From NCBI GenBank assembly GCA_018260755.1, contig JAGTWP010000033.1, positions 1-15,739 on the forward strand: 15,739 nt of DNA, written 5' to 3'. A program made the translations under genes and the position numbers. The stretch comes from Candidatus Altarchaeum sp. Its GTDB lineage: Archaea > Altiarchaeota > Altiarchaeia > Altiarchaeales > Altiarchaeaceae. Positions 3,233 to 15,496 of the stretch are shown here, piece after piece; position 1 is the stretch's first letter; each line of letters begins with the position of its first letter. The notes below the pieces were generated by a model. That model saw only the letters and a list, made by a program, of their open reading frames with translations, made no database searches and was not told where the DNA came from.

Positions 3233-3307
3233 TTTTAGCTCTCATTATTTCCGGAATTATATATTTTGAATTATTCTGCAACCGTTCCCGGATTTTCCAA
3301 TAAATTT

Positions 3308-3664
3308 TTATTTGCCAATATTTTCCAGGAGTTCTGCCTTTCTATTTTCAATGGAAGATATTTTAGATTTTAATCCTCTTATTTCTTTATTCACCTGTGA
3401 CAATTCATTAACGAATTTTTTCTTTTTGAGGTAATTTTCACCGTATTTTTCACTTACAAACGCCTCTACTTCTCTTCGGATAAGTTTAAGGTAAGGATTT
3501 TCGTGCATATACTGGTTACGGTATTGAAGTTTGCCTTCATTGATTGCCTCAAAAATTTCTTTTTGTATTAACCCGAATTCTTTGCGGGCGGTTTTGTCGC
3601 TGAGGGTGGCGCCCTTTGTTGTCCAATAAGAAGTTTCCATTTTAAACATTGTTTTAATTTTCAA
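3308..3664 (-). CDS. Small protein with predicted HTH-like region and C-terminal coiled coil
   Basis: This 118-residue protein has no function I can name. The N-terminal part (YWTTKGATLSDKTARKEF and GLIQKEIFEAINEGKLQYR) looks like an excisionase/MerR-type winged helix-turn-helix: a helix, a turn, a second helix, then a basic-aromatic wing. NPYLKLIRREVEAFV is another helix. Residues about 80-118 alternate Lys/Glu with hydrophobics in heptad style and are probably a coiled coil. The start is uncertain: Met1 overlaps the upstream TOPRIM gene by 11 bp, while Met6 (3649) or Met9 (3640) would leave short gaps; no Shine-Dalgarno site decides. It is the third gene of the ATPase-TOPRIM cassette. It could be a regulator or accessory factor of that cassette, or an unrelated hitchhiker. 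Confidence 0.7.
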   Translation of the reverse strand: MKIKTMFKMETSYWTTKGATLSDKTARKEFGLIQKEIFEAINEGKLQYRNQYMHENPYLKLIRREVEAFVSEKYGENYLKKKKFVNELSQVNKEIRGLKSKISSIENRKAELLENIGK

Positions 3665-4166
3665 GCAATTTCAGGAACTTTTTAAATGAGTCAACTTCCT
3701 TCAGATTGCTAAATTTTAATTCTTTAACATAATTCGGGAGAAATTTCTTCTTATATCCTCCTGATTTAAAATCATACTTCTTTTTGCTCCACTTGTGAAG
3801 TGCATCCGATGGCTTATTACTAAATTTTATTCCGAGAGAATAACATATCCATTCTTCTATTTCATCTTTAAAAACTATGATGTCGACTCTCTTTAGTTTA
3901 TTTTCATCTTTGGGAAAGTGTCTTTCTTTTTGTTTCTTTTCTTCCTTTTCGGAATTGCCGTCGCCATCTACAACAACAATTGTTTTATCAAAATCATCTA
4001 TCGCGGCTTTAATTTGATCGGTCATTTTTCGCGAGCACACGCCTTGAATATGATCGGAAGATGCTTTAACCTCATTTGAAACAGCACCTTCGTTTTTAAC
4101 CCACTTTATGAGTTCATCAAAAAATTTTGCACCATAAGTATCTTCGGCAAGTATTTTAACATTCAT
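3654..4166 (-). CDS. TOPRIM-like nuclease-type protein paired with an AAA ATPase
   Basis: The 170-residue protein has the layout of a minimal TOPRIM fold. An N-terminal strand ends in an acidic residue (VKILAEDTYG, Glu8), a hydrophobic strand carries an Asp-x-Asp pair (IVVVDGDG, Asp67 and Asp69), and a later acidic motif EEWICYS follows at 104-110. TOPRIM folds bind divalent metals and occur in topoisomerases, primases and OLD-type nucleases; the small stand-alone versions (DUF4276-, RloB- or DUF4435-like) commonly accompany ABC-type ATPases in defence loci. Its ATG overlaps the ATPase stop in an ATGA junction (4163-4166), so translation is probably coupled. A Lys-rich loop (72-93) follows the DxD. 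I cannot say which exact family it belongs to, nor whether it cuts DNA, cuts RNA or acts otherwise. Confidence 0.7.
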   Translation of the reverse strand: MNVKILAEDTYGAKFFDELIKWVKNEGAVSNEVKASSDHIQGVCSRKMTDQIKAAIDDFDKTIVVVDGDGNSEKEEKKQKERHFPKDENKLKRVDIIVFKDEIEEWICYSLGIKFSNKPSDALHKWSKKKYDFKSGGYKKKFLPNYVKELKFSNLKEVDSFKKFLKLLEN

Positions 4167-5530
4167 TTTTTGGAATACTTATCAATTCTTCCATATAACC
4201 ATTTTTCACTCAAAATTATTCCTGCAACATCTAATTCGTTCCTGATTTTTTCTTCATTCCCTATGTTGATGAAAGAACTTTCGCCATTTTCTTTTTTAAC
4301 TAAAATCAAATCTTTAATATCAGGATATACCAAATCAACAACTACGGGAGAGTGTGTCGTAATTATTACCTGGCCTTCTTCATTTTTGAATTCATCCATT
4401 ATTAATTCAATTGCTTTTGGATATAAGGAATTTTCCAGTTCATCAATTACAATTAATGATGGTTTTAATTCCAAAGCAGTTATAATTGTTAAAAATTTGA
4501 AACATCCCACAGATATACTTGGGGGCAACAACACAAGGTCATTCTCAGAAATTTCCATAAGAATTCTTCCGTCATCTGTTAATTTAAATATCAGATATGT
4601 GTTTGGAAATATATAAGAAAGCAGTGTCTTTATTCCATCCGGAACTTGACCATTTTCAAGGAAAAGATTATAAATAACATTGACTATATTTCGTCCATCT
4701 TCCGCCAAAGTTATGTTTTTTGTCGGGTTTATCGGAGGTTTTATCTCTGTAATATTTACCTCCTTTAAAATTATAGTGTTTTTGAGAAAATTAAAAATTT
4801 CATTATAATATTTGAATAAATTTTCTTTAGAAATTTTTTGCAGAATTTCGTAAGTTTGCGTGTTTGATAAATATGTTATGTGCTTTGTATATGCTTCTTT
4901 TTTATATTTATTTTCCTTTTCCATAGCTTTCACAACATCCTTCTCTTTAGATATTTCATCTATTATTTTTGCACTATCCGCAGTATAATTATAAATAATA
5001 TCGCCCGAATATTTTTTTATCTCTTTATCAAGGTTTTCTTTAAAAGACTCTAACTTACGGTAGAACTCTGGGTTAAGAAAACTAAGATCTAAAAAATCTA
5101 AACGAGGGTTATCAATGATGGCTTCATCCAACCCTTGATATTTTATTATTATTTCTCGTTTCGTTCTTTCAATTCTTAATTTCTCAACTTCGAACGCCTC
5201 CTTAATTATTTTAAATAGCCCTCCAGTTCCGCTAATTTCAACATCGTAAGAAATTTTATATTTATCTTTATCCTTATTGTCCTCAAATTTTAATGAAATT
5301 TTTATTGGCAATTCCTCTTTATGGTCAGATACAACATTCCTGTATCCCCACCACTCTGTAAATGGATTATCAGCCCTTTCAACATAGACCTTTCTAAGTA
5401 ATTTAAAAATTTCCGCTAAATTTGACTTTCCGCTTGCATTTGGTCCGACAACAACATTAAATTTTTCTAATCTAATCCTGCACTTTTTCAGCGACTTAAA
5501 ATTTTCAACATAAATTTCCCTCAATATCAT
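4163..5530 (-). CDS. AAA/ABC-type ATPase of the OLD/RloA/AAA_15-21 group
   Basis: The 455-residue protein begins with the SMC/RecF-like start LREIYVENFKSLKKCRIRLE. Walker A follows as GPNASGKS (29-36). A long insertion with charged helices lies at about 85-330. A signature-like helix is at 338-347 (SISVGCFKFL), Walker B at 359-364 (LIVIDE) and the H-loop TTHSP at 391-395. These are hallmarks of the ABC-class ATPases that power OLD nucleases, PARIS AriA and RloA. The protein has no fused nuclease domain; the TOPRIM part is encoded by the overlapping downstream gene. It starts 44 bp after dehydroquinate synthase on the same strand. The signature region has Val-Gly-Cys where many relatives have Ser-Asp-Gly-Thr, so it is divergent. 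ATPase activity is a safe inference; an anti-phage role is a hypothesis from architecture. Confidence 0.85.
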   Translation of the reverse strand: MILREIYVENFKSLKKCRIRLEKFNVVVGPNASGKSNLAEIFKLLRKVYVERADNPFTEWWGYRNVVSDHKEELPIKISLKFEDNKDKDKYKISYDVEISGTGGLFKIIKEAFEVEKLRIERTKREIIIKYQGLDEAIIDNPRLDFLDLSFLNPEFYRKLESFKENLDKEIKKYSGDIIYNYTADSAKIIDEISKEKDVVKAMEKENKYKKEAYTKHITYLSNTQTYEILQKISKENLFKYYNEIFNFLKNTIILKEVNITEIKPPINPTKNITLAEDGRNIVNVIYNLFLENGQVPDGIKTLLSYIFPNTYLIFKLTDDGRILMEISENDLVLLPPSISVGCFKFLTIITALELKPSLIVIDELENSLYPKAIELIMDEFKNEEGQVIITTHSPVVVDLVYPDIKDLILVKKENGESSFINIGNEEKIRNELDVAGIILSEKWLYGRIDKYSKK

Positions 5531-6762: not shown

Positions 6763-9012
6763 TCAAAAGTGCTTCTTACAAACATAAGTCAATTTTCCCG
6801 GATCACCCGGCACCTCCTCGGGAAAGTATATCGCATTTATTTCATTCATGTCAACAAAAACATCTTCTCCTTTCTCTTTGCTGCACATATCACATTTTAT
6901 TTTTAAACCAGGCAATAAAATTTTCATCCCTATGTCACCTGGAATACATCTTTTAGTTCTCCTGTCTTTAACAACACCTTCAATTGCTTTTGATATATCT
7001 ACCCTTAAACTTCCGAGTTCTTCCCCGAATTCGGAAATAATTGCAAGTCGGGGAGATGCATCCTTAATAATTTTCGTTGTTCCTATCAAACCAAGGTGAT
7101 TTTTGTAAAGCCGTTCGATTAAATTTAAATTCAGATCAAATTCTTTCTCCTTTATTGAACCGATATGTGCAATTAAAACATCACTGTCCTTAAATTGTGC
7201 TCCTATCTCATCAGTATAACCGGTATCTACTGTCATTCCCAGCCGAAATTTTTTCTTGTTATTTTCTATGAGGTCAAATATTAGTCCGACAGAATATTCA
7301 TCCCCCCACAACTCCCTGTGTTTTGCCTTTGTTGGCATAAGAACAAAACCATACTTTTCGCTTAAATCAATCGGAATTCCTGGCTGGATTACATAAATTT
7401 TTCTTACCGCCGACTTATCAAGAGACAGCAAATTCGCAAATTTATTTAGTGATGAAAAATTTAAAAACAGATCTATTTTTTTCTTCTCTTCCTGCGGAAG
7501 GTTGTCATTTCGTTCAAAAATTAAGGTCATTAACGATTCAAACTCACTTGTATGGTCAAGGTGGCTGTGAGAAATGAATATTGCATCTATATCCGAAATG
7601 TTGAATCCGTTGGCAAAAAAATTTTCTATAAAGTTAAACCCTGGATCTATGACAAATCCCCGCCCGTTCCATGAGAGAAAATAACCCCCTCCTTTCCTTC
7701 GTTCAATATCAGACGACAATGCAGGAGTGTAAGAATTCCACCTTCTCAAAACGATTAAAAAATTTTGAGCATTAGTTATTGTCTTTTTTGCAGAAACAAA
7801 ATTTTTAAATTTACCTTCTTTTTCGTTAATGTACCGGAATAGCCGTTCTTTCCTGTCTCTCAAATCCTCAACAATTATCTCAATAACATTTTCTTCCGCA
7901 CTTCTTCCTGTTTCTTTATCTTTAAGGCCTCCTATATTTTGTATCCACCAGTTTGCCTCAATTGCCTTGTTATAATTTGTCTTTTCATAAAATTCAAGCG
8001 ATTTTTTAAAATTTTCAATTGCCCCGGTTAAATTTCCAATATTTTTTAATGCTACACCCATGTCAAAATACGCATCGGCAAAATTTTTATCTATTTCAAT
8101 ACATTTCTCAAATTCTTCCTTTGCGGCATTGTAGTCGTTCAGCTCATTATATATAAATCCAAGAACATAATGTGCAAATAAAAAATTTTCCTCTGTTTTT
8201 ATCGCTTCTTTTATGAATTCTATCGCATCTTTTTTTTCTTTATATATATTTAACCTGTTATTCTCCTCTTTTAAAATAAACCCGTATGACTTATCATCGT
8301 CGGTCTTTAGAGTTACCTTCTTTTTTGTTTTGTTAAGTTTGAATACAAGCGAATGAATATCGTTTATAATGTTTATAGTCCTGTTATTACTGTCTTTGCT
8401 GATTACTGCATTTTTGTATATTTTTAACTTGCTTTTCTCTTCTTTTAGAATATATTCATAAATTTTTCCGCCTGTAATTTCTAAACGGACATTCTTTTTT
8501 GCCTTGTTAGACCTTAACAGGAGTGAATTATTTCCATTTGTAACAGTTATTGTTTCATTATTATCGGTTTTTTTGATGACCGTATTGAAATTGTCTTTGG
8601 AATCTTTGAACAAAGCAGATGGATTATTAATCCAGTCGATTTTTAATTCATCCTTTAAAAATTTTATGAAATCAGTATTGTTTTCAGGAACATCATCCCA
8701 GCAAAACAAATACTTCTCCACCCAGTCGATTTTTAATTCATCCTTTAAAAAATTTATGAATACCTTATTGTTTTCAGGAACATCATCCCAGCAAAACAAA
8801 TATTCATCTTTTTTGCCGTGTGCGCAATAATTAAGAACGCCTTTGAAAAAATTTACATCTGCCTTTTCATTAGCACTTTCTGCCGTAAGAATTCCTTCCG
8901 TGCAAAGTTTCTCTATGTCTTTAAGGTCTTTGTATTCTTTTGCCTGTAATTTGGCTATGACTTTTTTTTCTAATTCAATAAGATTAATGTCTTTAAATGG
9001 ATTAATTGGCAT
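6763..9012 (-). CDS. TPR and metallo-beta-lactamase-fold protein with duplicated N-terminal modules
   Basis: The 749-residue protein is a chain of modules. Residues 1-70 are a helical leader. Residues 71-100 and 101-130 are a 30-residue tandem duplication (YLFCWDDVPENN to KIDW; 24 of 30 identical). Residues 143-200 and 201-258 are a gap-free 58-residue beta-rich duplication (28 of 58 identical). TPR-like helices follow at about 265-350. A metallo-beta-lactamase domain from about 440 has HSHLDH (482-487), His565, Asp596 and His616 or His639 as likely metal ligands, an RNase Z-like layout. The C-terminus has CDMC (707-710) and CKKH (745-748), possibly another zinc site. MBL domains of this kind hydrolyse phosphodiesters or other esters; the substrate is unknown. 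No signal peptide or membrane segment is visible. It starts the minus-strand run and faces secG across a repeat-rich promoter region. Confidence 0.85.
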   Translation of the reverse strand: MPINPFKDINLIELEKKVIAKLQAKEYKDLKDIEKLCTEGILTAESANEKADVNFFKGVLNYCAHGKKDEYLFCWDDVPENNKVFINFLKDELKIDWVEKYLFCWDDVPENNTDFIKFLKDELKIDWINNPSALFKDSKDNFNTVIKKTDNNETITVTNGNNSLLLRSNKAKKNVRLEITGGKIYEYILKEEKSKLKIYKNAVISKDSNNRTINIINDIHSLVFKLNKTKKKVTLKTDDDKSYGFILKEENNRLNIYKEKKDAIEFIKEAIKTEENFLFAHYVLGFIYNELNDYNAAKEEFEKCIEIDKNFADAYFDMGVALKNIGNLTGAIENFKKSLEFYEKTNYNKAIEANWWIQNIGGLKDKETGRSAEENVIEIIVEDLRDRKERLFRYINEKEGKFKNFVSAKKTITNAQNFLIVLRRWNSYTPALSSDIERRKGGGYFLSWNGRGFVIDPGFNFIENFFANGFNISDIDAIFISHSHLDHTSEFESLMTLIFERNDNLPQEEKKKIDLFLNFSSLNKFANLLSLDKSAVRKIYVIQPGIPIDLSEKYGFVLMPTKAKHRELWGDEYSVGLIFDLIENNKKKFRLGMTVDTGYTDEIGAQFKDSDVLIAHIGSIKEKEFDLNLNLIERLYKNHLGLIGTTKIIKDASPRLAIISEFGEELGSLRVDISKAIEGVVKDRRTKRCIPGDIGMKILLPGLKIKCDMCSKEKGEDVFVDMNEINAIYFPEEVPGDPGKLTYVCKKHF
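8239..8586 (-). repeat. 58-residue (174-bp) tandem protein repeat in the TPR/MBL gene
   Basis: Residues 143-200 and 201-258 align without gaps, with 28 of 58 positions identical by my count. Shared landmarks include NSLLLR/HSLVFK, LKEE and the end motif KLKIYK/RLNIYK. Divergence at protein level shows that this duplication is older than the 30-residue one beside it. Confidence 0.85.
8623..8802 (-). repeat. 90-bp tandem duplication in the TPR/MBL gene
   Basis: The two 90-bp units encode residues 71-100 and 101-130. Long stretches are identical at the DNA level, for example the segments encoding CWDDVPENN, so the duplication is recent. It preserves the reading frame. Confidence 0.92.
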
Positions 9013-9092
9013 TTGGAAATTTATTAAAAATTTAAAAATTTTTGTTTAAAAATAAATTAATATTTAGTGAAAAAATTATAATTAGTATGTAC

Positions 9093-9218
9093 AAAATAAT
9101 TAGTAAAATAACTAATGTGTATAAAATAACTAATGTGTATAAAATAATTAGTAAAATAATTAATGTGTATAAAATAATTAATGTGTATAAAATAATTAGT
9201 AAAATAACTAATGTGTAT
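9093..9218. repeat. 48-bp higher-order tandem array between divergent genes
   Basis: The array is built from a 12-bp block (AAAATAATTAGT) followed by two 18-bp blocks (AAAATAACTAATGTGTAT or its C-to-T variant). The order is 12-18-18 at 9093-9140, 12-18-18 at 9141-9188, then 12-18 at 9189-9218. The C/T variant is the same in both 18-bp blocks of the middle unit, so the pair changes together. ATTAGT and ACTAAT form short inverted repeats inside the first and last units. The array lies between the start codons of the TPR/MBL gene (9012, minus) and secG (9269, plus). The open frames through it on both strands are a by-product of its composition and are not called as genes. Confidence 0.95.
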
Positions 9219-9231
9219 AAAAATTTCAAAT

Positions 9232-9240
9232 TATAAAAAT
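9232..9240 (+). promoter_or_regulatory. TATA box candidate for secG
   Basis: TATAAAAAT lies about 33 bp upstream of the secG ATG and just after the tandem array, the spacing expected for an archaeal promoter with a very short leader. Confidence 0.5.
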
Positions 9241-10573: not shown

Positions 10574-13372
10574 ATGTCCATCCGGCAAATTAAACAAATA
10601 CGGAAAGGTGTATGGGAGATTGAGAATAAACCGGTTCCAATCAGAATCTACGGAACAGAAAAGATAGTTAATACAATGGAAGAAGATGTCATAAATCAGG
10701 CAAGAAATGTTTCCCAGCTTCCTGGGATTGTAAAAGCAAGTTTAGTCATGCCTGACGGACATAAGGGGTATGGATTTCCAATCGGAGGGGTTGCTGCATT
10801 TGATGTGGAAAAAGGAATAGTAAGCCCTGGCGGTGTGGGCTATGATATCAACTGCCTTTCGGGAGATACAAACATATTATGTGAGCATGGATATTATGTT
10901 AAAATAAAGGACTTTGAAGAAAATTGGAAAAAAAAAAGTTTGCTCTCTTATGATCTTTCTAATGGATATTCAGAAGTTACCTCCATCAAAAAATTTATTA
11001 AATTTAAACCAAAAAATTCGGTCTATAAAATTATTACTAAAAGTGGAGATGAAATAACTGCTACTGAAGATCATCCGTTCTGGACTCCAAAAGGAATGAT
11101 TAATGTGGGGGATTTAAAAATCGGAGATAAACTCGGAATGTATCATTTTAAAGGCGTTCATTATGAAGAACCAAGTGATGAAGAAATATTGAATGAGAAT
11201 AAAATTAAGGAAAATCTTATTTTTTTGGGAAAGGCCTTTCAGGGAAACGCTATGCAACAGGTAATGACACAGTTAAAAAAAATAAAAATTCTACCCTTAA
11301 AATACAACTCAATACAAATTTCTTATTTATTAAAAATAATTGGTTTTGTTCTTGGTGACGGCTCCCTTTATTTTCAAAATAAAAAGGGGAATGGAATTGT
11401 TAGGTTTTATGGAAAACCTGAAGATTTACAAGAGATAAGAGAAGATATTTTGAAACTCGAATTTACTCCCTCAAAAATTTATTCAAGAAAAAAGCAAGGC
11501 AAAATTAAAACCGAATACAAATGCTATGAATTTGAAAATACAGAACATAGTATTAAGGTTGTTGGCAATTCATTTGCCGTTTTGTTATTTTCTTTAGGTG
11601 TTCCAGCAGGTAAAAAGGTTTCGCAGGCATATCAAATTCCCTCATGGATTCTTAAATCAAAGTTATGGCAGAAAAGATTATTTCTTGCATCGTTATTTGG
11701 GGCGGAAATGTCGTCACCAAAGGTAAATAATAATGGTTATAATTTTGATGCGCCGTGCTTCTCGATGAGTAAGTTAAAAAAATTTGAAGAAAACGGAAGA
11801 CAATTTATGGAGCAGATGGTTGATATGCTTTCAAATTTTGGCATAAAAACACAAAAAATTGGAAAAAGAAAAGAGGGCAAGTCCGTTCGTTTCAAAATAA
11901 TGGTCTCAAACGACACCGAAAATTTAATTAATTTTTATGAAACCGTAAATTTTGAATATAATAAAGACAAAAGAAACGAGAGCAATGCGGTTGTTCAGTA
12001 TTTAAAGTTCAAGAACAAAGTTATTAAAGAAAGGAAAGGAAGTCCAAGAATTGCTCTGAATTTTGAGACATATGGCGAGTATAAAAAGAACATAACGGAT
12101 GACGGGAAAGAAGGGTATGTTTGGAATGAAGTCGTGAAAATTGAAAAAGTAAATTTTAATGACTATGTTTATGATTTTACAGTTGAGCACAAAGATCATA
12201 ATTTTATTGCAAATAAATTTATTGTATCTAACTGTGGCGTCCGGCTTTTAACAACTTCATTAACCGAACCGGACATAAAGTCGCGATTAAAAATTTTAAC
12301 AAACAAATTATACCAAAATATCCCGAGCGGTGTCGGAAAAGGCGGAATTTTGAAGTTAGGCATTGACAAGATAGATGAAGTCGGGAGGTTAGGTGCAAAA
12401 TGGGCGATAGAAAATGGTTATGGAATTAAACAGGACTTAAATTTTATGGAAGAGAACGGATGTATTGATGATACTGATACGGGCAAGGTTTCCCAAAGAG
12501 CAAAGATGAGGGGAAGGGACCAGCTTGGAACATTGGGAAGCGGAAATCACTTTCTTGAAATCCAGAGAGTTGAGGAAATTTATAATGATGATATTGCAAA
12601 GAGATTCGGATTGTTCAAAGGACAAATAACCGTAATGGTTCACTGCGGAAGCAGGGGCTATGGCCATCAGATTTGTGATGATTATATTAAAATTTTGCTT
12701 TCTGCCACAAAAAAATATGGAATAAATTTATCTGATTCGGAACTGGTCTGTGCTCCTTTAAATTCAAAGGAAGGAAATGATTATATTAAAGCAATGCACT
12801 GCGGTGTCAATTATGCTTTTTGTAACAGAGAAATGATAACGCACCGGATTAGAGAAACATTTGAAAATTTAAAATTTAATGTTGAAATGAAAATTATGTA
12901 TGATGTTTGCCACAACATAGCAAAATTTGAGAAACACAAAGTTGACGGTGAAGAAAAATTGCTGTGTGTTCACAGAAAAGGTGCAACAAGGGCATTTGCA
13001 GCAGGAAGAGATGAAATTCCGGAAAGTTACAGAAATGTGGGACAACCTGTTATTGTTCCGGGAAGTATGGGAACATCATCTTATGTTTTGGTGGGAACAG
13101 AAAGGGCAATGGAAGAAACATTTGGAAGTGTATGTCACGGTGCTGGCAGGGTTATGTCAAGGGCAGAGGGAATAAGAACATGGAGAGGCGAAGATATAAT
13201 GAAAGAAATGGAAAGAAAAGGACAGGTGATAAAGTCAGAATCTCTGAAGATTTTGGCTGAAGAACATCCGAGTGTTTATAAGGATATAGATGAAGTTGTA
13301 AAGAGTGTTGAACTATCGGGATTAAGTAAATTAGTGGCGAAGGTTGTGCCTTTGGGGATAATAAAGGGATAA
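10574..13372 (+). CDS. rtcB: RNA-splicing ligase RtcB, intein-containing precursor
   Basis: RtcB joins 2',3'-cyclic phosphate and 5'-OH RNA ends in tRNA splicing and RNA repair, using GTP, Mn2+ and a guanylylated histidine. The 932-residue precursor contains a 460-residue intein (residues 94-553); the spliced protein would be 472 residues, normal for the family. Extein landmarks are MPDGHKGYGFPIGG (59-72), PGGVGYDIN (85-93), CGVRLL from 554, GSGNHFLEIQ, MVHCGSRGYGHQ, YDVCHN and CHGAGR. Likely metal ligands are Asp91, Cys554 (Cys94 after splicing), His659, His690 and His780. His855 in CHGAGR matches the guanylylated histidine by spacing to the Pyrococcus enzyme. The gene has its own TATA-like box. 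The archease partner is not present. Confidence 0.96.
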   Translation: MSIRQIKQIRKGVWEIENKPVPIRIYGTEKIVNTMEEDVINQARNVSQLPGIVKASLVMPDGHKGYGFPIGGVAAFDVEKGIVSPGGVGYDINCLSGDTNILCEHGYYVKIKDFEENWKKKSLLSYDLSNGYSEVTSIKKFIKFKPKNSVYKIITKSGDEITATEDHPFWTPKGMINVGDLKIGDKLGMYHFKGVHYEEPSDEEILNENKIKENLIFLGKAFQGNAMQQVMTQLKKIKILPLKYNSIQISYLLKIIGFVLGDGSLYFQNKKGNGIVRFYGKPEDLQEIREDILKLEFTPSKIYSRKKQGKIKTEYKCYEFENTEHSIKVVGNSFAVLLFSLGVPAGKKVSQAYQIPSWILKSKLWQKRLFLASLFGAEMSSPKVNNNGYNFDAPCFSMSKLKKFEENGRQFMEQMVDMLSNFGIKTQKIGKRKEGKSVRFKIMVSNDTENLINFYETVNFEYNKDKRNESNAVVQYLKFKNKVIKERKGSPRIALNFETYGEYKKNITDDGKEGYVWNEVVKIEKVNFNDYVYDFTVEHKDHNFIANKFIVSNCGVRLLTTSLTEPDIKSRLKILTNKLYQNIPSGVGKGGILKLGIDKIDEVGRLGAKWAIENGYGIKQDLNFMEENGCIDDTDTGKVSQRAKMRGRDQLGTLGSGNHFLEIQRVEEIYNDDIAKRFGLFKGQITVMVHCGSRGYGHQICDDYIKILLSATKKYGINLSDSELVCAPLNSKEGNDYIKAMHCGVNYAFCNREMITHRIRETFENLKFNVEMKIMYDVCHNIAKFEKHKVDGEEKLLCVHRKGATRAFAAGRDEIPESYRNVGQPVIVPGSMGTSSYVLVGTERAMEETFGSVCHGAGRVMSRAEGIRTWRGEDIMKEMERKGQVIKSESLKILAEEHPSVYKDIDEVVKSVELSGLSKLVAKVVPLGIIKG
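10853..12232 (+). mobile_element. Intein with LAGLIDADG homing endonuclease inside RtcB
   Basis: The intein begins with Cys (CLSGDTNILC) and ends ...FIVSN before extein Cys554. Splicing blocks are present: an N-terminal Cys, TEDH (164-167 of the precursor) as block B, and YVYDFTVEHKDHNFIANKF as blocks F/G with terminal Asn. Two LAGLIDADG-like motifs lie at about 252-263 (LLKIIGFVLGDG, Asp262) and 368-379 (RLFLASLFGAEM, Glu378), so both catalytic acids seem kept. The usual penultimate His is replaced by Ser. It interrupts the invariant DIN|CGVR segment, so the metal ligand Cys is also the +1 splicing nucleophile. RtcB inteins at this site are known in other archaea such as Pyrococcus. Confidence 0.95.
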
Positions 13373-13607: not shown

Positions 13608-14450
13608 ATGAGTACGCACCATAAATTAATAATTGGAAATTGTATGAGTATGGAAGAAATTCCTGATGAAACTGTCCATCTTGTGGTAACCTCCCCTCCG
13701 TATTTTAATGCACCATTTGACTATAAAGGTTTATTTAAAAGTTATGGACAATATTTAGGCGTCCTTCGTAAAGTAGCTAAAGAGCTATATAGGGTATTAG
13801 CTGATGGAAGGATTTTTTTCCTTAACATTGATGATATGTTAATAGACGGCGAAAAATTTCCAATCGCTGCCGATGCGACCAGAATACTTTTAGATGCTGG
13901 TTTTAGATACAGGGACAGAATCATCTGGAAAAAACCTGAAGGTTATTTAAGGATAAGCAGGCGTAGTGGAGTCATTTTGCAGAATCCTTATCCGATGTAT
14001 TTTTATCCGGATAATCTTCTTGAAAGCATAATCATCTTCCAAAAAGGGAGATTTAACTATAGATTGATTTCTGAGGAGATCCGGGAAAAATCAAAAATTG
14101 ATACAAAAGAGTTTCAAGACAAAAAATGGTATATGACTTTATGGGAAATGAATAATGTTATGCCAGGTTCTCCGTTAGAGAAAGATATAGCTGCATTTCC
14201 TGAAGAATTACCATATCGGGCAATAAAATTATTTTCATATGTTGGTGAAACAGTCTTAGATCCTTTTGCGGGTTCTGGAACAACTATGAAAATAGCAAGG
14301 CAGTTAGGAAGGAATAGTATAGGTATAGAAATTAAAAAATCGCTGATTCCCACAATAAAAGAAAAACTTGGATTTAACGGACAAAAAACCTTAACAGATA
14401 ATAAAGATACTTTTGAGGTAATTCAGAGATCAAAAGGATGGATAGAATGA
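13608..14450 (+). CDS. Type II DNA methyltransferase, probably N4-cytosine
   Basis: The 280-residue protein is an S-adenosylmethionine-dependent DNA methyltransferase of the beta arrangement: the catalytic motif IV TSPPYF (28-33) comes first, and the AdoMet-binding motif I LDPFAGSGTT (217-226) lies near the C-terminus, followed by IGIEI (238-242). Ser-Pro-Pro-Tyr rather than Asp-Pro-Pro-Tyr favours N4-cytosine methylation, although this class also includes some N6-adenine enzymes. Between the motifs lies a target-recognition region (about 100-200). The gene overlaps the downstream endonuclease gene, so it protects host sites against that enzyme. The ATG at 13608 follows a TATA-like box by about 33 bp. 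Recognition sequence cannot be deduced. Confidence 0.92.
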   Translation: MSTHHKLIIGNCMSMEEIPDETVHLVVTSPPYFNAPFDYKGLFKSYGQYLGVLRKVAKELYRVLADGRIFFLNIDDMLIDGEKFPIAADATRILLDAGFRYRDRIIWKKPEGYLRISRRSGVILQNPYPMYFYPDNLLESIIIFQKGRFNYRLISEEIREKSKIDTKEFQDKKWYMTLWEMNNVMPGSPLEKDIAAFPEELPYRAIKLFSYVGETVLDPFAGSGTTMKIARQLGRNSIGIEIKKSLIPTIKEKLGFNGQKTLTDNKDTFEVIQRSKGWIE

Positions 14451-15496
14451 ACAACCTCACAGCTAGAATTAAGGGAATAAAATATACTCCTCTTTTATGT
14501 AGAGAGTTACACACATTTAATTTTAATGAGTTAGCAGAAGCCTTATCAAAAGAAGCTACCTTTATCCTAAGCATAGATGATAAAAATAAAGTAGCTGTAA
14601 GCTGGTGGGTTTCTGCAAAGAGAACAAGATCGTATCCTTACGCCAGAGTTTATGACTCTCTTAGTTTTTCCGGTAAGAAAATCACAATAATCCCAATATT
14701 TAAAGATGAGGGAAAAGAAGGCGACAGAGATTTCCTGCAATGGGATACAATTTCATTAATGAGTCTGCTTGGTGTTTATGTAATTGTGGCCTATTATGAG
14801 GATTCAGTTCAAAGTTCAAGGTATGAGAATAAGATAACTAAACAAAGATTTGACGTTGATTATCTCAAAGAAGAGATTAAGAACTTACTATCATATCAGT
14901 CAGATGCACTACATTGGAATGTATCGCAAATAGATAAAGTTGTCCAAATTGGCAAAAAAGCATTGGAATCTTATGAAAAAATCTCACAAAAGACAGGGGT
15001 TGAAATGCATTCAAGAGCAACCGCTGAAAAAAGAATTGAACAATTAAAAGAAGGAAAAGATACCTTTATGAATCTTTCGAGAAATCTTGCAGAAATGGCA
15101 CAAAAGAGAGAAAGCATAACTGTGCAACCAAAAGAGAAACTGTCAGGAGCTAAAGGCACTATAACAATAACCAACTATTTAGGAGGAAATTATTATTTCA
15201 CTTCCGATGAAGTTGAGTTACATGAAAATGATATTTATTTGATTGATGCAAAGCACACAAAGACAGATAATCTTCCATCTATAAACGATATTAAGGATGG
15301 ACTGCTTAAAATGATACTTTTTACAAATTTGGAAAACGTTAAATCAGACGGCAGGAATCTTAATCCCGTGCCAATTCTGAAACTTACAACAGGTAGGGGT
15401 TTTTCAATTGAATCATCAAGCGAAAAACAGAAAGAATTATTGGATACATTAAATAAAGAAGCAAAATTAAATGGATTTACAATCAGAAATTTTTAA
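14438..15496 (+). CDS. Probable type II restriction endonuclease
   Basis: The 352-residue product follows and overlaps the methyltransferase gene, the usual place for the cognate endonuclease. A PD-(D/E)xK-like core is visible near the C-terminus: EVELHENDIYLIDAKHTK with Glu260 and Asp270-Ala-Lys272. A second conserved-looking block is IFKDEGKEGDRDFLQWDTIS with LLGVYVIVAYYE (88-121). A charged helical stretch lies at about 165-225. The start is ambiguous: ATG 14438 gives a 13-bp overlap, while ATG 14447 gives an ATGA overlap with the methyltransferase stop and has a GGATGG stretch just upstream, so I favour 14447. The restriction family and cut site are not recognised. Role is inferred from context and motif. 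Confidence 0.8.
   Translation: MDRMNNLTARIKGIKYTPLLCRELHTFNFNELAEALSKEATFILSIDDKNKVAVSWWVSAKRTRSYPYARVYDSLSFSGKKITIIPIFKDEGKEGDRDFLQWDTISLMSLLGVYVIVAYYEDSVQSSRYENKITKQRFDVDYLKEEIKNLLSYQSDALHWNVSQIDKVVQIGKKALESYEKISQKTGVEMHSRATAEKRIEQLKEGKDTFMNLSRNLAEMAQKRESITVQPKEKLSGAKGTITITNYLGGNYYFTSDEVELHENDIYLIDAKHTKTDNLPSINDIKDGLLKMILFTNLENVKSDGRNLNPVPILKLTTGRGFSIESSSEKQKELLDTLNKEAKLNGFTIRNF

Follow-up and report, generated by a model that had tools for sequence, protein, structure and literature searches.

Split OLD-type systems and the altiarchaeal locus

Nucleases of the OLD family (class 1/2, including GajA) carry an ATPase and a TOPRIM nuclease domain in one protein, and the catalytic residues of the latter have been described as E400, D455, D457 and E508, the last of these where the helical domain begins, together with the helical lysine K562 (PMC6755086). 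In PARIS, a class 4 OLD system, the two parts are split into separate proteins: the nuclease AriB is held by a hexamer of the ATPase AriA, an anti-restriction protein acts as the trigger, and tRNA is cleaved (PMC11455837, PMC12409363). The same two-gene layout is found in AbiL (AbiLi/AbiLii) and RloAB, and in HEC-01, a PADLOC candidate system of two overlapping co-directional genes encoding the ATPase HEC-01A and the DUF4276-type protein HEC-01B. ATPase-TOPRIM cassettes of this sort protect bacteria from viruses. The archaeal Cran1, a single-chain OLD relative, has a cell-cycle role and apparently does not act in defence (PMC12796447). A literature search on HEC-01, DUF4276 and MADS returned nothing relevant among the papers covered.

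The locus considered here lies in a stretch of 15,739 nucleotides (the window) from a Candidatus Altarchaeum genome of 1.32 Mb in 78 contigs, where the original prediction had described a cassette of three genes. Three ORFs are indeed found on the reverse strand, encoding an ABC-class (AAA_21/OLD-type) ATPase of 455 residues (4163..5530), a TOPRIM nuclease-like protein of 170 residues (3654..4166), and a 110-residue protein with a winged helix-turn-helix and a coiled coil (3308..3640), which is a separate mobile gene outside the module. The first two genes share an ATGA in which the ATPase stop overlaps the TOPRIM start (4163..4166), and this 4-nt overlap recurs in most relatives. The overlap proposed between the TOPRIM gene and the third gene has not stood up: it requires a doubtful TTG start at 3664, and the aligned relatives instead start with the residue for which the ATG at 3640 codes, 13 nt past the TOPRIM stop. 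Pfam identifies the housekeeping neighbours that had been named, 3-dehydroquinate synthase II (PF01959, E 3.6e-124) and aIF2-alpha (PF07541, E 3.5e-21; PF00575).

Elsewhere in the window, about 8 kb from the cassette, are overlapping genes for an N4/N6 DNA methyltransferase and a type II restriction enzyme (13608-15496; PADLOC REase_II, E 1.2e-95). A 932-residue ORF (10574-13372) resembles, as judged by eye from its sequence, an RtcB RNA ligase interrupted by an intein, and a 749-residue protein (6763-9012) combines TPR repeats with a metallo-beta-lactamase-like domain; ORFs similar to the latter adjoin the dehydroquinate synthase gene in the three congeners G001, G002 and G003. The window further contains the N-terminal part of an apparently truncated IS1595-type transposase (20-499; zinc ribbon, E 1.5e-8) and a low-complexity tandem repeat (9032-9236), whose two strands read as KIISKITNVYK/LIILYTLVIL units.

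A diverged TOPRIM subunit beside a familiar ATPase

The ATPase assignment rests on profile matches and motifs. Pfam returns AAA_21 (E 3.6e-24) and AAA_15 (E 5.2e-20), and the PADLOC models, at E-values from 1e-36 to 1e-22, are led by HEC-01A, followed by AriA, PDC-M25A, AbiLi and MAD3. The Walker A and Walker B motifs occupy the residues originally assigned to them, and together with the H-loop they are invariant or nearly so across 19 relatives: GPNASGKS at residues 29-36 (5423..5446, reverse strand), where G29, N31, S33, G34 and K35 are invariant; LIVIDE at residues 359-364 (4439..4456, reverse strand), where E364 is invariant; and THSP at residues 392-395 (4346..4357, reverse strand), invariant throughout. 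The locus thus has the ABC ATPase, complete with both Walker motifs and the H-loop, that characterises a split OLD-type ATPase-TOPRIM module.

For the 170-residue protein, structure prediction and structure comparison, together with conserved residues, confirm the TOPRIM fold that had been proposed. The AlphaFold2 model, built from 19 aligned sequences, has a mean pLDDT of 93.8 and a pTM of 0.88, and shows a core in which strands and helices alternate and, after it, a C-terminal part made of helices. Our fold calls are based on VIA-align and motifs; plain Foldseek gave nothing below E 1e-3 for either this model or that of the small protein, and a search of PDB sequences with the TOPRIM alignment profile gave chance matches only. 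The best VIA-align match is 2p62 (Pyrococcus PH0156, Z 10.1), and the model also aligns with the TOPRIM region of an OLD nuclease, 6nk8 (Z 9.4, 147 residues), with GajA (Z 7.3), and with AriB, 8ux9 (Z 7.1 over 144 residues). Unrelated alpha/beta proteins reach Z 6 to 7, and one Argonaute chain 7.8, which leaves a modest margin; the top matches agree with one another and span almost all of the chain.

Invariant among the 19 aligned sequences are Glu8, Asp67, Glu104, Trp106 and Lys140. Two of the three acidic residues originally singled out, Glu8 (codon 4143..4145, reverse strand) and Asp67 of the D67-G-D69 motif (3960..3968, reverse strand), therefore hold in full, while Asp69 is retained in most sequences and replaced by Glu or His in some. 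The protein adjacent to the ATPase accordingly has a TOPRIM fold with a conserved Glu and a DxD-type motif, the third position of which is D, E or H among relatives. Glu104 (3855..3857, reverse strand), at the start of a helix, is a candidate metal-B ligand comparable to Glu508 of OLD, and Lys140 (3747..3749, reverse strand) may be the equivalent of OLD Lys562. E8, D67, E104 and K140 appear to agree with the OLD catalytic residues both in sequence order and in their placement along the secondary structure, a putative correspondence drawn from motif order.

The originally noted likeness of the pair to PARIS, RloAB and split OLD systems holds, and HEC-01 is the nearest known system. Like HEC-01, the pair consists of two overlapping co-directional genes, and its ATPase matches HEC-01A best (1.4e-36, up to 1e-44 in relatives, with all 19 members matching). 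The nuclease subunit differs, being about 170 rather than about 230 residues long and more diverged: of the 19 TOPRIM relatives, seven give weak matches to one HEC-01B model (best over HEC-01B models 1.5e-5) and six to DUF4276, while the copy in the window matches neither, nor any other defence-family model at a meaningful E-value. With PARIS the pair shares the split into ATPase and TOPRIM protein and an ATPase similar to AriA (8e-27), but its TOPRIM subunit, at 170 residues against 306 in the 8ux9_A chain, is about half the size of AriB, and the AriB models of PADLOC and Pfam match neither the window protein at E<=1 nor its 18 relatives at E<=0.1. The layout is also that of AbiL, where the ATPase matches AbiLi (6e-26) and the TOPRIM protein matches AbiLii at E 0.015 over 30 residues only, and of RloAB, although the match of the TOPRIM protein to RloB (15.8 bits) falls below the gathering score of 31.5. 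Similarity to MADS is seen in the ATPase (MAD3 NCBIfam, 2.9e-29) and in seven of the 19 TOPRIM relatives, which match MAD4 weakly, but the scores (102.5 of 420 bits for MAD3, 15.5 of 160 bits for MAD4) are far under the curated cut-offs. Class 1/2 OLD nucleases, including GajA, combine these two domains as well and, going by motif order, share the catalytic residues; the locus differs from them in encoding two separate proteins and in having no adjoining UvrD-like helicase.

To call this an undescribed defence system was too strong, given that profiles for HEC-01A/B, MAD3/4, AriA and AbiLi already exist. What the locus holds is a split OLD-type module of two genes, closest to HEC-01 and related to AriAB, AbiL and MAD3/4; its kind is already known, and what is new is an archaeal branch with a small, diverged nuclease subunit.

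Distribution, decay and the gene behind the pair

Matches were found in 20 of 394 archaeal genomes (14 of the 294 of good quality). In this first set each of the 19 intact TOPRIM genes immediately follows an ATPase gene, in most cases sharing 4 nt with it, and later archaeal sets show the same placement; it is because every full-length TOPRIM relative examined directly follows an ATPase that we regard the pair as a two-gene module. Searches of viral contigs with the TOPRIM protein and its alignment, and of plasmids with the protein, found no relatives. Most archaeal copies adjoin housekeeping genes, outside visible defence islands. Some lie beside LysRS, GlyRS, trmI or a TrmJ-like methylase gene, and others at pth2/truD. 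Neighbours in tRNA metabolism were counted at 5 of about 13 sites in the first set and at 0 of about 8 in a later, smaller one; a signal suggestive in the first set and negative in the second is not one that we claim.

The pth2/truD site is best seen in the Thermococcus-like genus of G256, represented by complete genomes of about 2 Mb, in which the pair lies between pth2 (recognised by eye) and truD (confirmed by Pfam) at 8 of 30 truD loci and is absent from the other 22. Where it is absent, pth2 and truD are separated by 3-7 nt at most loci, three giving no usable distance; the pair thus splits a tight gene pair in some species only (L160 2830-6302; L101-L130). Among close relatives both genes of the pair have dN/dS values of 0.08-0.27, and purifying selection therefore maintains the intact copies. 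The pair is located elsewhere in a neighbouring genus, beside an Era-like GTPase gene, and in one species of that genus (G055) only a fragment of the TOPRIM end is left at this site.

The history of the pair can also be read in the genus of the window. The dehydroquinate synthase gene is kept in the three congeners (89-93% protein identity), and directly behind it all three carry remnants of the pair: in G003 about 72 ATPase codons joined to the last 25 or so TOPRIM codons, in G002 about 40 ATPase codons, start lost, joined to the last 10 TOPRIM codons, and in G001 only the last 24 TOPRIM codons, behind an unrelated insert. Three different junctions indicate that the pair is ancestral in the genus and was lost three times. 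In G001 a short insert (L005, about 1420-1500) separates the dehydroquinate synthase gene from the remaining TOPRIM codons; it has inverted ends (ATGCTCAATA...TATTGAGCA) and may be a small transposable element. G001 and G003 each have, at another place in the genome, a further pair that is intact and belongs to a different sub-branch (L056, L002), in neither case with the third gene. Patchy presence at fixed places, together with decay in situ, is what one expects of a costly module of conditional use, for example immunity, and not of a core function.

The third gene has a history of its own. In line with the HTH/coiled-coil protein that had been proposed, its product is modelled (pLDDT 93.0) as a winged helix-turn-helix followed by a 40-residue helix, resembling XPA/Rad14, MerR-type regulators, BldC and phage Xis (Z 6 to 8), and judging from this model it is probably a DNA-binding protein. 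No family in Pfam, NCBIfam, PADLOC or PHROG covers it. Relatives sharing 40-64% identity over about 110 residues occur on seven plasmids from Nostoc, Tolypothrix, Dolichospermum and Legionella, and an alignment query, required since the single protein found nothing in genome contigs, located 26 bacterial and archaeal genome loci, with hosts including Deltaproteobacteria, cyanobacteria, Chromatiaceae, Chloroflexi, Victivallales and Akkermansiaceae; the congener G001 carries a relative. Viral contigs and phages searched with the small protein yielded none. The neighbourhoods of these genes vary and are mutually unrelated, and no relative of the window TOPRIM was detected, by the profile used, at the 26 genome loci or the plasmid loci.

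Several of these contexts merit mention in their own right. A BREX operon of a Chromatiaceae genome harbours a relative between its pglZ and brxL genes (L044 4001-4339), and on an Akkermansiaceae contig (L050 3896-6466) the initial part of the small protein shares its reading frame with a TPR protein carrying a signal peptide, perhaps through insertion at the start of the latter. Among Nostocales copies, in several unrelated contexts, DNA similarity of 87-99% stops near the ORF ends, and some copies carry an in-frame stop. The idea of a precise mobile element was rejected, since end points vary between copies (-1, -9, -26, -72; +326 to +396) and no fixed termini emerged.

The original prediction cast the small protein as an added component, possibly a regulator, antitoxin-like or a sensor, which would make this a three-gene system in which it regulates, senses or neutralises the ATPase-TOPRIM pair. 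Its gene does lie on the same strand, close behind the TOPRIM gene, and in an independent neighbourhood of one Nostoc lineage a relative stands beside a HEC-01 pair that is distantly related and has its genes in reverse order. This arrangement is nevertheless found at only one of 30 Nostocaceae HEC-01 pair loci within flanks of 1.5 kb, plus the same-lineage L036, and the small gene is missing from the five plasmid pair loci checked, from each of the 86 archaeal loci with the pair (a count in which some places recur), and from the congener remnants. The anticipated conserved three-gene synteny is therefore not seen, and relatives stand alone in many other contexts; widespread occurrence apart from the pair is precisely what the original prediction had named as counting against it. 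On the side facing aIF2-alpha, moreover, the TOPRIM stop in G003 is followed at once by the leader of that gene; in the window some 415 additional bases, with the third gene among them, stand at this point (approximate extent 3235..3650, reverse strand). We consider a three-gene system highly improbable: the third gene, absent from the remnants and the 86 archaeal loci and with relatives that occur alone, is not a component but an unrelated roaming gene, a hitchhiker inserted later behind the pair. Where the choice had been left between recent insertion and stable resident, each applies to a different part, the pair being an old resident that decayed in three of four species and the small gene a recent insertion.

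Function of the pair and its meaning

We think it likely that the two co-translated proteins, an ABC-type ATPase and a separate TOPRIM nuclease, constitute a split OLD nuclease of the defence type, to which the third gene does not belong. By analogy, defence would operate through release of the TOPRIM nuclease: as inferred from AriA/AriB and OLD/GajA, an oligomer of the ATPase would keep the TOPRIM subunit inactive until a viral signal altered the ATPase and freed or activated the nuclease, which might then cut tRNA, as AriB does, or DNA, as OLD and GajA do, by two-metal catalysis, and the cleavage would arrest or kill the cell and so stop the infection. Against a defence role stand the housekeeping surroundings of most archaeal copies, the want of any meaningful defence-family match for the window TOPRIM protein, and the cell-cycle role of Cran1. 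One could also speculate that the archaeal branch specifically targets tRNA, its neighbours in tRNA metabolism being the functional setting of a tRNA-directed immunity housed in tRNA operons, a suggestion that we regard as doubtful.

Two other functions can be envisaged for the same pair of proteins. The housekeeping neighbours and fixed chromosomal places would suit a housekeeping or cell-cycle ATPase-nuclease, for which Cran1 provides a precedent (PMC12796447), but an essential role sits poorly with presence in 20 of 394 archaeal genomes, absence from 22 of 30 Thermococcus-like truD loci, and three losses in one genus, and we judge this explanation unlikely. Slightly less probable still is a pure toxin-antitoxin or addiction pair, with the TOPRIM protein as toxin, the ATPase as antitoxin and no antiviral role. 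Co-translation of the genes would be expected of such a pair, and AriA has been described as the antitoxin of AriB (PDB 8v45 name; PMC11455837); yet loss is tolerated, as is shown by clean absences alongside intact copies and by decay on site, and the PARIS precedent ties the same architecture to virus sensing.

The pair extends split ATPase-TOPRIM modules to Altiarchaeota, Thermococcus-like and other archaea. As the small nuclease subunit is missed by current TOPRIM profiles, such archaeal systems are probably under-counted. The locus also carries a caution: what lies directly behind a defence-like pair may turn out to be a roaming gene with no link to it. A natural test is offered by the Thermococcus-like species, some of which have the pair between pth2 and truD while others lack it.
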